64,000 nucleotides of DNA, taken from Candidatus Rokuibacteriota bacterium (GTDB lineage Bacteria > Methylomirabilota > Methylomirabilia > Rokubacteriales > CSP1-6). Numbering within the stretch: position 1 is the first letter of the stretch; every line of letters starts with the position of its first letter. Location: positions 1 to 64,000 of the forward strand of contig QHTB01000135.1 in the NCBI GenBank assembly GCA_003220615.1. The letters are read 5' to 3'. The notes beneath the pieces were generated by a model. That model was not told the origin of the DNA. It did not search any database and saw only the letters and a program-made list of their open reading frames with translations. This document shows, piece after piece, positions 9,230-31,013 of this stretch. The translations under genes were made by a program, and so were the position numbers.

Positions 9230-10150
9230 TTACCGCGTCAGCCCGGCGGCTTCGAGCGCCCGCGCGATCGCCTGGCGCTCGGCGTGACTCACCGGTGTGA
9301 GCGGCGGACGCACGTGAGCGGCCGGGATCCGGCCGAGGATGACGAGCGCCTCCTTCATCCGGTTGTGCATGTCGACGAACGGCGGCGCGTAGAACACGGC
9401 GACGAGCGGGTCGAGCCGGTCGTTGATCCGCCGCGCGCCCTCGACGTCACCCTTCTGGCACGCCTCGAACAGCTCGGCCTGGAGATCGGCCGTCACGCTG
9501 CCCATGCCCGAGATGGCGCCATCGGCCCCGAGCAGGAAGCTCGCCATCAGCGACATCGTGAACGCCGACAGCATCGCGACGGGCCGCCCGGTCGCGCGCA
9601 GCGCGCGCAGGTTCTTCTCGAAGGCGACGATCTCGTTCGACCAGTCCTTCACGCCGACCACGTGTGGGAGCTGGGCCAGCCGCGCCAGCGTCTCGGGCGC
9701 GTAGCCGATGCCCGACGCCGGCGGGTATTCGAAGACGATGATCGGGACGTCCGCCTTCTCGGCGATCTCGCTGAAGTGACGAACGACCATGTCCGGCTTG
9801 AGCTGGGCGCCCCACATGAAGAGCGTCGGTGGGAAGACCAGCACGGCGGCGGCGCCGAGAGCTTTGGCGTCGCGCGCCAGCTCGACGGCCTCGGCCGTGC
9901 CGTCCGAGTAGACGCCGGCCACGATCGGGCAGGCCGAGCCGACCTCGTCGAGCGCCACCGCGAGCGACCGCTTCCGCTCGTCGCGGCTCAGCGACGAGAC
10001 CTCGGCGGCGTGGCCGTTGGCGACGATGCCGGTGACGCCGCGGGTGTCGGCGAGCCAGCGCAGATGCGCGCGGTAGGCCGGCTCGTCGATCGAGAGGTTG
10101 GCCTTGAAGGGCAGGATGTTGGCGGGCATCACACCCGAGAACGTCACCAT
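9230..10150 (-). CDS. Dihydrodipicolinate synthase family protein
   Basis: GVTGIVANGHAAEVSSLSRDERKR, GVKDWSNE, FLLGADGAISGMGSV. Confidence 0.87.
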   Translation of the reverse strand: MVTFSGVMPANILPFKANLSIDEPAYRAHLRWLADTRGVTGIVANGHAAEVSSLSRDERKRSLAVALDEVGSACPIVAGVYSDGTAEAVELARDAKALGAAAVLVFPPTLFMWGAQLKPDMVVRHFSEIAEKADVPIIVFEYPPASGIGYAPETLARLAQLPHVVGVKDWSNEIVAFEKNLRALRATGRPVAMLSAFTMSLMASFLLGADGAISGMGSVTADLQAELFEACQKGDVEGARRINDRLDPLVAVFYAPPFVDMHNRMKEALVILGRIPAAHVRPPLTPVSHAERQAIARALEAAGLTR

Positions 10151-26247: not shown

Positions 26248-26706
26248 CTAGAGGTAGCCGGGGGCGGGGCGCTCGAGCCTGCCGCCGGGCCCAGGGGGCA
26301 GGCCGCGGCGCATCCCGTCGAGCTGCGCACGTGCCTCCATCTGCTGTGCCCACAGCGCCGCCTGAATGCCCTGGAAGAGCCCCTCGAGCCAACCGAGGAG
26401 CTGCGCCTGGGCGATTCGGATCTCGGATTCACTCGCCGTCGCCGCGAGCGGTGCCGCGAACGCCTCGAGCTCCTGCTGGAGATCCTCCGAGAGCCCGGCC
26501 TTGAGCACGCTGAGCGCGCGATCGTAGATCTCGCGCAACCGTTTGCGCCCGGCCTCGTCCGGAGACGCGCGGCGCACTTCCTCGAGCAACTCGCGCAGCA
26601 TCGCGCCGATGCGGAGTAGCTGGGCCGGTTGGCTGACGGCCTGGTTGTGCTGATCCGCCGGCTCCTGCGGCCGCCCTGTGATGATTTCAGGCTCCTGGTC
26701 CGCCAT
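26248..26706 (-). CDS. Bacterial proteasome activator (Bpa/PafE) family protein
   Basis: LLRIGAMLRELLEEVRRASPDEAGRKRLREIYDRAL...SESEIRIAQAQLLGWLEGLFQGIQAALWAQQMEARAQLDGMRRG, C-terminus APGYL. Confidence 0.87.
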   Translation of the reverse strand: MADQEPEIITGRPQEPADQHNQAVSQPAQLLRIGAMLRELLEEVRRASPDEAGRKRLREIYDRALSVLKAGLSEDLQQELEAFAAPLAATASESEIRIAQAQLLGWLEGLFQGIQAALWAQQMEARAQLDGMRRGLPPGPGGRLERPAPGYL

Positions 26707-26752: not shown

Positions 26753-27424
26753 CTAGCTGAGCGCTGGTGTCGACGCCGGGCGGCGCTTGAAGCGGCCTTT
26801 GTAGTACGACACCCAGATGGTGACCAACGGTGTTCCCACCAGCGTCGGCCAGAGCCAGCGGGCGACTGGTGGCAAGAACGTGAAGTTGACCACGGAGAAC
26901 GCCGTCACCGTCGCGATGTAAGAGGACAACATCCCGATCATGTGATCGAGCATGAAGGCCCGGGCATCGGCCGACGGGCGCGCGAAGTGCCACGCATGTC
27001 GGCCGGCCACGATGGCGCCGATCGTGCCGAAGACGATCGCGACTACGCCGAGGCGCTGCCACACGGGGCCCGGCTGAACGAGGCCGAAGACGGCGAGACC
27101 AGCGCTGGCGACGAGCGTCAGCAGCGTGGCCGTCCAGTCGAGCGGTCCGACGAGGCCCGGCCGCTTGTGATAGAGCGCGCGGTAGCCGGAGAACGCCAGA
27201 TAGAAGCTGAAGACGGCGACCATGAGCAGGAAGTAGTTCGGCCGCCACGCCGCCAGCACCAGCGCGGTGACGGCCACCGTCGCCATCGCCCAGAAGTAGA
27301 TCTTTCCCCAGCGGCGGTGGGCCGGGCCGCCCTTGACCGTCAGCATGGCACCCGGCGCGACGAAGAGCGCGATCATCCCCGCGGCGATGTGAATGGAGCG
27401 AAGCGTGATCATGAGTCCGTCCAT
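26753..27424 (-). CDS. DUF2306-like multi-TM membrane protein
   Basis: IHIAAGMIALFVAPGAMLTVKGGPAHRRWGKIYFWAM; several TM segments. Confidence 0.7.
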   Translation of the reverse strand: MDGLMITLRSIHIAAGMIALFVAPGAMLTVKGGPAHRRWGKIYFWAMATVAVTALVLAAWRPNYFLLMVAVFSFYLAFSGYRALYHKRPGLVGPLDWTATLLTLVASAGLAVFGLVQPGPVWQRLGVVAIVFGTIGAIVAGRHAWHFARPSADARAFMLDHMIGMLSSYIATVTAFSVVNFTFLPPVARWLWPTLVGTPLVTIWVSYYKGRFKRRPASTPALS

Positions 27425-27438
27425 CGCGAATCTCCCTC

Positions 27439-27942
27439 TCAGCGAGATTGACCCTGGACCATCCCGAGCGGGATCTCGCGGAGGCCACGCACCTTGAGGG
27501 CCTCGGGAGCGAACCGCCCGCCGACCGCCACGCCGCCCGGCAGTGGGCCATAGAGCTCGATGCCGATCGAGGCGATCCCCGCGGTCGTATTCGGCATCGG
27601 CGCGTCGATGAACTTCACCGAGACGATGGCGAGGATCGGGCCGCTGTCCTCGGCCAGATCCGGCAGCGGCTGGCGATCGAACCTGAGATCGGGGAACGCG
27701 GTCTTCATCGCCTTCTGGTGCACGTCACCGTGATACCAGTCGACGAGCGCTTTCTTGCTCTCGAACCACGCGAAGATGACTCGCTTGCCTCCCGGCGTGT
27801 GCGCGGTCTCGACGCCGAGACAGCCGGGCGTCGCTTTGAGCGCGCCGATCACGTCGGGGAAGCCGGCGGGTCGAGGCTGGGCGAACGCTGGGCCCGACCA
27901 TGCGAGGACGAGCGTGAGAGCGACTGACGCGACGATCCTCAT
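27439..27942 (-). CDS. Secreted protein with antibiotic-biosynthesis-monooxygenase-like domain
   Basis: Signal MRIVASVALTLVLAWSGPAFA; LKATPGCLGVETAHTPGGKRVIFAWFESKKALVDWYHGDVHQKAM; ATGA overlap with PadR gene. Confidence 0.65.
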   Translation of the reverse strand: MRIVASVALTLVLAWSGPAFAQPRPAGFPDVIGALKATPGCLGVETAHTPGGKRVIFAWFESKKALVDWYHGDVHQKAMKTAFPDLRFDRQPLPDLAEDSGPILAIVSVKFIDAPMPNTTAGIASIGIELYGPLPGGVAVGGRFAPEALKVRGLREIPLGMVQGQSR

Positions 27943-28505
27943 CGGCGAACCTCCTTGGGCGCGATCTTGCCGAGCGTCCGTGCGGCATCCACGGCCCAGT
28001 CGTGCAGCGCCTCCGCCCGACGCTGGCCGTAGTGGAGAGTCATCAGCCAGTACGGGAGCTCGGGATGTCGACCATGCTCACGGCGCAGACGGCGCTCGAT
28101 CTCGGCATACGTCAGCAGCAGCGCCTGCTGGCGTTCCTGGAACTGGCGAACGTGGCCGAGGCTGATGGGGACCGGCACCTGGGCGCCGAGGAACAGCTTG
28201 AGCAGCAGCTCGCTGCGAAAGCTTTCCGGCCGCGCCGGCTGTCCCAGCCACGCGCGCAGCACCTCTCGTCCGCGCGGGGTGAGGGAATACACCTGGCGAT
28301 CGGGCTTGCCGCGCTGGGCCTCGTGCCGGCGCCGGACGAAGCCGTCGGCCGTGAGCCGGCGCAGGATCGGATAGATCTGCCCGAAGCTCTCGCTCCAGAA
28401 GTGGGCGATGCTCGAGTCGATGGCCTTCTTGATGTCGTAGCCGGAGCGCGGCCCCGCGCTGAGCATGCCCAGCACGGCGTAGCGGGTGGTATTGCTGGCT
28501 GCCAT
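27939..28505 (-). CDS. PadR family transcriptional regulator
   Basis: RYAVLGMLSAGPRSGYDIKKAIDSSIAHFWSESFGQIYPILRRLTADGFV. Confidence 0.94.
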   Translation of the reverse strand: MAASNTTRYAVLGMLSAGPRSGYDIKKAIDSSIAHFWSESFGQIYPILRRLTADGFVRRRHEAQRGKPDRQVYSLTPRGREVLRAWLGQPARPESFRSELLLKLFLGAQVPVPISLGHVRQFQERQQALLLTYAEIERRLRREHGRHPELPYWLMTLHYGQRRAEALHDWAVDAARTLGKIAPKEVRR

Positions 28506-28556: not shown

Positions 28557-29195
28557 CTAGTCCTCGGTGGCCGGAAAGAGCTCGCCCTGCTTCCAGAGCG
28601 AGATGAAGCTCCGGCGGTGGAGCGGGCAGGGGCCGTGGCGGTCGAGCGCCGCCAGGTGCTCGGCGGTGGCGTAGCCCTTGTGCCGGGCGAAGCCGTATTC
28701 GGGGAACTGCCCGTCGACGTCCAGCATGATCCGGTCGCGCGTGACCTTGGCGATGATCGACGCGGCCGCCACCGTCGCGCAGCGGGCGTCGCCGTCCACC
28801 AGGTTCCTCTGCGGGCAGGCGAGCCCGCTCAGCGCGACGAAATCGGTGATGACCAGATCCGGAGCCACCTTGAGCTGGTGCAACGCCTCCAGCATGGCCA
28901 CCCGGGTCGCCTGCAGGATGTTGACGCGGTCGATCGTGACGTGATCGACGACGCCGACGCCGACCGCGACCGCGCGCGCCATGATGACGTCGTAGAGCTC
29001 GGCGCGCCGCTCCGGCGTGAGGAGCTTGGAATCGGCCAGGCGCTTGATGCGGCGATCGGGATCGATGACGACGGCCGCCGCGACGACCGGCCCGGCCAGC
29101 GGCCCGCGGCCGGCCTCGTCCACCCCGGCCACGCGGACGACGCCGGTGCGCCAGGCTCGAGCCTCGAAGTGATACGGCGCCGACGGCGGCGGCAC
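28557..29195 (-). CDS. rnhB: Ribonuclease HII
   Basis: VRVAGVDEAGRGPLAGPVVAAAV; DSKLLTPERR; GYATAEHLAALDRHGPCPLHRRSF. Confidence 0.96.
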   Translation of the reverse strand: MPPPSAPYHFEARAWRTGVVRVAGVDEAGRGPLAGPVVAAAVVIDPDRRIKRLADSKLLTPERRAELYDVIMARAVAVGVGVVDHVTIDRVNILQATRVAMLEALHQLKVAPDLVITDFVALSGLACPQRNLVDGDARCATVAAASIIAKVTRDRIMLDVDGQFPEYGFARHKGYATAEHLAALDRHGPCPLHRRSFISLWKQGELFPATED

Positions 29196-29212
29196 GGCCG
29201 AGGCCGGCCCGG

Positions 29213-29587
29213 CTAGGGCTCGGGGACCGTCGTGGGGATCTGAGTGACGCGCTTCTCGCGCAGGCGGGCGGCCTTGCCGGCGAGCTCGCGCAGGTAGTAG
29301 AGCTTCGAGCGGCGGACGCGACTGCGGCGCACGACCTCGACCCGCTCGATGCGAGGCGAGTGCAGGGGGAACGTCCGCTCGACGCCGACGCCGTAGGAGA
29401 TGCGACGCACGGTGAAGGAGGCGCGCGCGCTCTCACCGCGCTTGCGGATGACGACGCCCTCGAACGCCTGCAGCCGCTCCTTCTCGCCCTCGATCACCTT
29501 CACGTGCACGCGCACGGTGTCGCCGGGGGCGAAGCCGTCGCGGTCCTTCTTGAGCTGCCCTGCTTCCACGAGCCGAATGGCATCCAT
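29213..29587 (-). CDS. rplS: 50S ribosomal protein L19
   Basis: [81 protein letters not shown]. Confidence 0.97.
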
Positions 29588-29608
29588 GAGTCGTCCCTTT
29601 CCCGTTCG

Positions 29609-30343
29609 CTACTCGGGCGTGTCGCCCCGCTTGAACCGTTCTACCAGCTCGCGCTCCTCGGCGGCGAGGGCCGCCCGCTCCAGCAGCTCCGGCCGCGCCC
29701 GCCACGTGCGGTACAGCGCCTGCGTCCGCCGCCAGCGCGCGATGCGCGCGTGATCGCCCGAGAGCAGCACCGCCGGCACCCGCGCGCCGCGGAACTCCTC
29801 GGGGCGCGTGTACTGCGGCGGCTCCAGCAGGCCGTCGGCGAACGACTCGCGCTCGGCCGCGCCCTCGCCTCCGAGCACGCCGGGGAGCCGGCGCACCACC
29901 GCGTCCGTCACGACGAGCGCCGGCAACTCACCGCCGGTCAGCACGTAGTCGCCGATCGAGAGCGCCTCGTCGGCGACGCGCTCGCTCACGCGCTCGTCCA
30001 CGCCCTCGTAGCGCCCGCACAGCAGCACGAGGTGGAGCGCACCGCCGAGCTCCTCGGCCACCGCCTGCGTGAACAGCCGTCCGCGCGGATCCATCAGGAT
30101 CACGCGCGCGTCTGGAGTTCTGAGCGCCTCGACTGCCGCGAACAACGGCTCGGGCTTGAGGATCATCCCGCCGCCGCCGCCGAAGGGGTAATCGTCGGTG
30201 ACCCGGTGCTTGCCCTCTGCGTAGTCTCGGAGATTCGCCACCCGGATGTCAACGAGACCGCGCTGCCGGGCGCGCCCCAGCATCGAGGCGCCGAGCGCCG
30301 GCTCGACCATCTCGGGGAACAGAGTGACGATGTCGATCTTCAT
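29609..30343 (-). CDS. trmD: tRNA (guanine-N1)-methyltransferase
   Basis: [66 protein letters not shown]. Confidence 0.97.
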
Positions 30344-30350
30344 CTGGTTT

Positions 30351-30470
30351 GCCGTCGGGGCACCTGCGCCGGGCCGACTCACTCAGGCTCGCCTCGATCG
30401 ACCACAGGGTCGGCTCGCCTGCGGCTGCGCCTCCGCCAGCGGGCTGCGGCTCGCACTACGGCCCGACGGT
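30351..30470 (-). repeat. Structured spacer element between rimM and trmD bounded by inverted repeats
   Basis: CCGTCGGG (30352-30359) versus CCCGACGG (30462-30469); internal GGCCGAC / GTCGGCT and GCxGCGGCTxCGC blocks. Confidence 0.4.
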
Positions 30471-30488
30471 CGGCGAATCACCGCGCGA

Positions 30489-31013
30489 TTACAGCTCGAG
30501 CAGGCCGGCCGGCGGCCGGATCACGACCCGCCCGGCCGCCACGTCCACGTCGACCACGATCTCGGCGACCGCCGGGATCAGATGCTCGCGCTCGGCGCCC
30601 TGCACGACCCAGAGGTCCTGCCCGGGGCCCGGCTCGATCCGCGTGAGCCGACCGACGTCGCGGCCGTCTTCGGTCGTCACCCGAGCGCCTTCGAGCTGCC
30701 AGGGATAGAAGCTGCCGGGCCGGGGAGGCAGCGCCTGCGAGGCCGGCACCGCGATCAATCGCCCGATGAGGGCCCGCGCCGCCTCCGGTGACTCCACGCC
30801 GTCGAAGGCGAGCAGCACGGCGTCACCCTGACGGCGCGAGGCGGTCACGCGCCGCGGCTGCCGCTCGTCGCTCGCCGCATCCCACACCACGCACGCGGTC
30901 ATCCCCTCGAAGCGTTCGGGCCGATCGGTGAGGGGAATCACCCGGACCTCACCGCGCAGACCGTGCGGCCGCACGATCTCGCCGATGGCGACGAGCTTTT
31001 CCCCGCTACTCAA
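30489..31013 (-). CDS. rimM: 16S rRNA processing protein RimM
   Basis: [42 protein letters not shown] start. Confidence 0.92.

Follow-up and report, generated by a model that had tools for sequence, protein, structure and literature searches.

The window, a stretch of 64,000 nucleotides from the contig of a soil Rokubacterium, carries a gene whose product, judged by its sequence, is a true member of the bacterial proteasome activator family (Bpa/PafE), and the same genome encodes a 20S proteasome together with the Pup machinery. The host is known as a metagenome-assembled genome (MAG) of the phylum Methylomirabilota and is unrelated to the tuberculosis group. The ring protein Bpa, as known from tuberculosis bacteria, needs no energy to open the proteasome. 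We consider it very probable that the window gene encodes an authentic Rokubacterial Bpa with an equivalent role. The protein would fold as a four-helix bundle and assemble into a ring, and its flexible C-terminal tail, with its Tyr-Leu end, would dock in the pockets of the alpha ring of the organism's own 20S proteasome; docking would open the gate to partly unfolded proteins, whose degradation would then need neither ATP nor Pup tagging. Family membership, the predicted fold, the co-encoded 20S and Pup machinery and the receiver residues of PrcA form the basis of this reading, and from them we infer the ring, the docking, the gate opening and the substrates. The features discussed are listed in Table 1.

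Table 1. Position, strand and supporting evidence of the features of the window.
Feature	Position	Strand	Evidence
bpa (Bpa/PafE family), 152 aa, ATG start	26248..26706	-	PF10759, 163 bits; phmmer 9.2e-36 to Mtb Bpa (6bgl); top four Foldseek matches 5lfj and 8rgx
Codons of C-terminal Pro-Gly-Tyr-Leu, tail predicted to dock on the 20S alpha ring	26251..26262	-	Sequence; comparison with relatives; Tyr/Leu contacts in Mtb (PMC11953334)
Predicted long helix H4, residues 93-136, equivalents of Mtb substrate contacts	26299..26430	-	AlphaFold helix; phmmer alignment to Mtb Bpa; PMC11953334
PadR-type regulator, unknown ORF and DUF2306-like membrane protein, co-directional, just upstream of bpa	26753..28505	-	ORF positions; Pfam; order in sister species
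rnhB-rplS-trmD-rimM core genes, chromosomal anchor of bpa	28557..31013	-	Gene order shared with Ca. Rokubacteria 13_1_40CM_68_15; proteins 87-95% identical

The sequence-only reading had assigned the protein to the Bpa/PafE family from motifs of the mycobacterial protein. These motifs are present in the ORF, and the assignment agrees with profile, pairwise and fold comparisons. PF10759 (Bacterial proteasome activator, BPA) covers residues 15-141 (5.7e-48, 163 bits, for a cut-off of 29.5 bits), and no other Pfam-A family matched the protein. In a phmmer search of the PDB, structures of Mtb Bpa were recovered at 9.2e-36 with residues 20-142 aligned, and beyond these no further significant match was obtained. 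Because orthologues with 58-92% core identity exist in 17 other Methylomirabilota genomes, the gene is not a chance ORF. Its closest named relative belongs to Candidatus Rokubacteria bacterium 13_1_40CM_68_15 (86% identity), and the other two named matches are also Rokubacteria. Such proteins have probably already been picked up by automatic annotation; the Rokubacterial Bpa adds a new branch, outside Actinobacteria, to a known family, and is not a new kind of machine.

An AlphaFold2 model, built from a four-row alignment of proteins from the window and related loci, places four helices at residues 27-46, 51-71, 74-89 and 93-135, between disordered ends. The mean pLDDT is 68, with 87 residues between 70 and 90; confidence in the model is moderate, and it is silent on the ring. 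Foldseek gave four PDB matches below an E value of 0.001, every one of them a chain of Mtb Bpa (5lfj, 8rgx), with a TM-score of 0.40-0.47 by query length. We hold the predicted four-helix bundle fold with moderate confidence. Binding of the substrate HspR by Mtb Bpa involves H131, F138 and R145 (PMC11953334), whose counterparts in the phmmer alignment are Gln112, Trp119 and Arg126 of the window protein. As read from the alignment of Rokubacterial copies, position 131 is mostly His, almost every copy has Trp at position 138, and most retain Arg145. As these contact positions are in part kept and in part changed, the substrate groove is predicted to be similar, but not identical, to that of Mtb Bpa.

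A 20S proteasome had been predicted elsewhere in the genome, and prcB and prcA were indeed found on another contig (C79); the search also recovered dop, pafA, Mpa and Pup. On contig C79, a run of genes in one orientation comprises a C-terminal part of mpa (at the contig edge, with a GQYL end), dop, prcB, prcA and pafA. All four complete genes score above the NCBIfam equivalog cut-offs (PrcA, TIGR03691, 332 bits; PrcB, TIGR03690, 309 bits; Dop, TIGR03688, 621 bits; PafA, TIGR03686, 633 bits). The N-terminal part of an mpa gene lies at the edge of contig C124, adjoining yebC and the gene of a substrate-binding protein, the arrangement seen in complete loci of relatives, and we infer that the two contig edges belong to one mpa gene. 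The proteins of the C79 locus are 92-99% identical to those of the sister species and 71-94% identical to those of other genera, so this 20S locus belongs to the organism.

Mpa scores 726 and 721 bits against TIGR03689, and outside the C79 locus it is represented by two full-length genes and two fragments. The distinct Mpa ATPase genes number at least four, distributed over six contigs (C79, C96, C123, C124, C172 and C232), against a single prcB-prcA pair; every complete Mpa C-terminus ends in GQYL, and the multiple genes may be paralogues or a strain mixture. Three Pup genes were found on contigs C152, C160 and C193 (77.5, 73.9 and 69.5 bits), one ending in GGQ and two in GGE. The GGQ form requires deamidation by Dop, while the GGE form is ready for conjugation. 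Between dop and prcB, where pup usually lies, this genome has none (L005:10509-10622), pup being located elsewhere in the genome; in some other families of the phylum (for example in G010 and G014) pup lies near prcA. A third proteasome-like subunit (contig C52), considered as a possible second 20S proteasome, is HslV with an adjoining HslU, and HslVU (L006:660-2614) is therefore encoded alongside the 20S proteasome in this genome.

The sequence-only reading had pointed out the C-terminal PGYL, which comparison with relatives does not bear out as a motif of the group. The window Bpa ends in RPAPGYL and that of the sister species 13_1_40CM_68_15 in RPGQYL; the DNA reads CCC GGC TAC CTC TAG in the former and CCC GGC CAG TAC CTG TAG in the latter, so that the Gln codon is absent from the window gene. 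Among the 18 other copies that are complete or nearly so, 17 have a -QYL or -HYL end, most relatives having GQYL, and a GQYL end minus its Gln was found in the window species only. The window protein therefore lacks the exact GQYL end, which is usual in actinobacteria and does not define PF10759, and has an HbYX-type docking tail with a penultimate Tyr (Gly-Tyr-Leu).

The altered tail raises the question of whether the protein, a true Bpa by descent, might no longer open the proteasome in this organism, APGYL weakening the docking and the protein serving as a chaperone-like ring or being in decay. The Gln at position -3 is missing from the window copy alone, the GQYL motif is needed in mycobacteria (review PMC12288473), and decay does occur in the group, as the Bpa of one relative (G065) is broken by an internal deletion and a frameshift. 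We nevertheless regard this explanation as improbable. First, the core is conserved as in GQYL-ended relatives, with 72-92% identity to several of them. Second, variants at the Gln position occur naturally elsewhere (GHYL in G092, GPYL in G342), and the motif search of Delley et al. permits Gly at position -3, by our reading of their excluded list (PMC4254994). Third, the Tyr and Leu of the Mtb tail, which touch R26 and K52 of PrcA (PMC11953334), are both retained. On the receiving side, R26 and K52 are present in the PrcA of the window genome, which aligns without gaps to Mtb PrcA in that region, and in 30 out of 30 Methylomirabilota PrcA sequences inspected. Since the residues that make the contacts are kept, we expect docking of the tail to survive the loss of Gln, perhaps in a weaker form.

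The bpa gene lies 46 bases behind the DUF2306-like gene (whose DUF2306 match is slightly below the Pfam cut-off), within a co-directional run headed by the PadR-type regulator. A transcript shared by this run and bpa is possible, in this genus only, and because of its place in the run bpa may be under PadR control. The order rimM-trmD-rplS-rnhB-padR-ORF-DUF2306-bpa-GDPD-dinB is shared with 13_1_40CM_68_15, which is a separate MAG; together with the identity of the core proteins, this shows that bpa is chromosomal in the genus and does not lie on a stray actinobacterial contig. The non-actinobacterial host suspected from the sequence is thus borne out both by the nearest named relatives and by synteny. 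The MAG has an estimated contamination of 5.5% and several extra Mpa genes, but a binning artefact that would have brought in the bpa contig or the 20S contig from an actinobacterium or another organism is hardly credible, given the rnhB-rplS-trmD-rimM genes beside bpa, the clustering of the window Bpa with 17 other Rokubacterial Bpas apart from the actinobacterial ones, and the near identity of the 20S contig to the sister-species locus.

The GDPD and DUF2306-like neighbours pointed out by the sequence-only reading are real, but their adjacency to bpa is limited to this genus. Of the neighbours in the window, none was found near bpa in another genus; the eight Bpa-bearing genera have almost no neighbours in common, none being common to most of them. 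As the neighbours are genus-specific, GDPD and DUF2306 carry no functional signal, and these and the other neighbours were discarded as functional partners. In actinobacteria, bpa is distant from the Pup locus and lies in unconnected surroundings (Delley et al., PMC4254994), with which the neighbourhoods observed here agree.

Bpa was detected above the cut-off in 19 of 96 Methylomirabilota genomes, all within one family. In the same 96 genomes, the 20S alpha subunit was found in 74, Pup in 86 and Dop/PafA homologues in 80; Pup-proteasomes therefore appear to be the rule across the phylum, with Bpa a patchy addition in one family. The open-licence literature found makes no mention of Pup-proteasomes as a rule in Methylomirabilota. 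Sub-threshold PF10759 matches in two further genomes (G072, G073) were rejected, being short and in proteins unlike Bpa. Outside the phylum, two of 297 sampled genomes (G204, G342) encode a Bpa, and these two cluster with the Tsukamurella, Nocardia and Arthrobacter copies. In a maximum-likelihood tree the Rokubacterial Bpas form one group, apart from the actinobacterial-type Bpas, with 100/99 support, and all of them have a two-residue gap in the loop preceding the TPSESEIR stretch. As it is unrooted, the tree shows a single Rokubacterial group without a direction of transfer. Probably one Methylomirabilota family either already had Bpa or acquired it once, and the gene has since often been lost or moved. 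It was observed that bpa is monophyletic in Rokubacteria, yet its neighbourhood differs from genus to genus, as if it had repeatedly moved. A wider proposal can be put forward only tentatively, and we judge it doubtful: Rokubacteria would form an old independent branch of ATP-independent activation, bpa would be a free-moving, dispensable module (at least eight neighbourhoods), and the GQYL, GHYL and GYL tails would tune docking.

No association between Bpa and the 20S alpha subunit was observed within the phylum (15 of 19 genomes with Bpa, 59 of 77 others; Fisher p = 1), because almost every genome there has the 20S proteasome and because MAGs are incomplete. In four MAGs with Bpa (G087, G088, G091 and G065), no 20S alpha, dop or pafA gene was detected. 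The relevant contigs of G087 and G088 stop within mpa (residues 1-107 and 1-185, respectively), at the position beside yebC and a divergent gene for a substrate-binding protein that mpa occupies in complete loci. The same mpa break is found in G092, whose 20S genes sit on another contig. As the contig stops inside mpa at the locus itself, the missing 20S proteasome of G087 and G088 is attributed to assembly, the genes being most likely lost to the break, and these genomes were not retained as real cases of Bpa without a proteasome. In G091 and G065 the contig stops before mpa, and the missing 20S genes are uninformative. Rokubacterial assemblies repeatedly break inside the mpa gene of the proteasome locus (contig ends of L220, L221, L224 and L187), which makes calls of 20S presence or absence in Rokubacterial MAGs unreliable. 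In the broken bpa gene of G065 (L182, about 9436-9684), the GQYL tail is readable in another frame.

Bpa is conserved in all proteasome-bearing actinobacteria, where it strictly co-occurs with prcAB (PMC4254994, PMC8223512), and the papers found in the open-licence literature describe it from Actinobacteria only. Proteasomes are known outside this phylum in Nitrospirae, Armatimonadetes and Verrucomicrobia (PMC5666114), and the absence of Bpa from Leptospirillum has been taken as an argument that only the Pup locus was transferred horizontally when non-actinobacterial proteasomes arose (PMC4254994, PMC8223512). A Rokubacterial clade with Bpa and a full Pup-proteasome set weakens this argument. 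In the open-licence literature, no paper on a Rokubacteria or Methylomirabilis proteasome was found, which is weak evidence of novelty, and a search for UBact returned only unrelated papers. With a tail and a substrate face that have diverged in nature, the Rokubacterial Bpas would be useful to test the roles of GQYL and of the ring-lining residues; they are of interest both for proteasome evolution and for such docking-motif tests.

Compared with Mtb Bpa/PafE (Rv3780; 5lfj, 6bgl, 8rgx), the window Bpa belongs to the same Pfam family and shares the four-helix bundle (as predicted), the long H4, the flexible ends and the terminal Tyr-Leu, and its gene likewise lies away from the Pup-proteasome locus (PMC4254994). 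It differs by Trp in place of Phe138, Gln in place of His131, the APGYL tail, a shorter disordered N-terminus and its non-actinobacterial host; relative to actinobacterial copies in general, it has about 48-58% core identity and two residues fewer before TPSESEIR. Leptospirillum and other Nitrospirae, Armatimonadetes and Verrucomicrobia are likewise of Gram-negative type, with PrcA, PrcB, Mpa, Dop, PafA and Pup (PMC5666114, PMC4254994). Bpa is reportedly absent from Leptospirillum ferrooxidans (PMC4254994); some of the Rokubacteria, by contrast, carry it.
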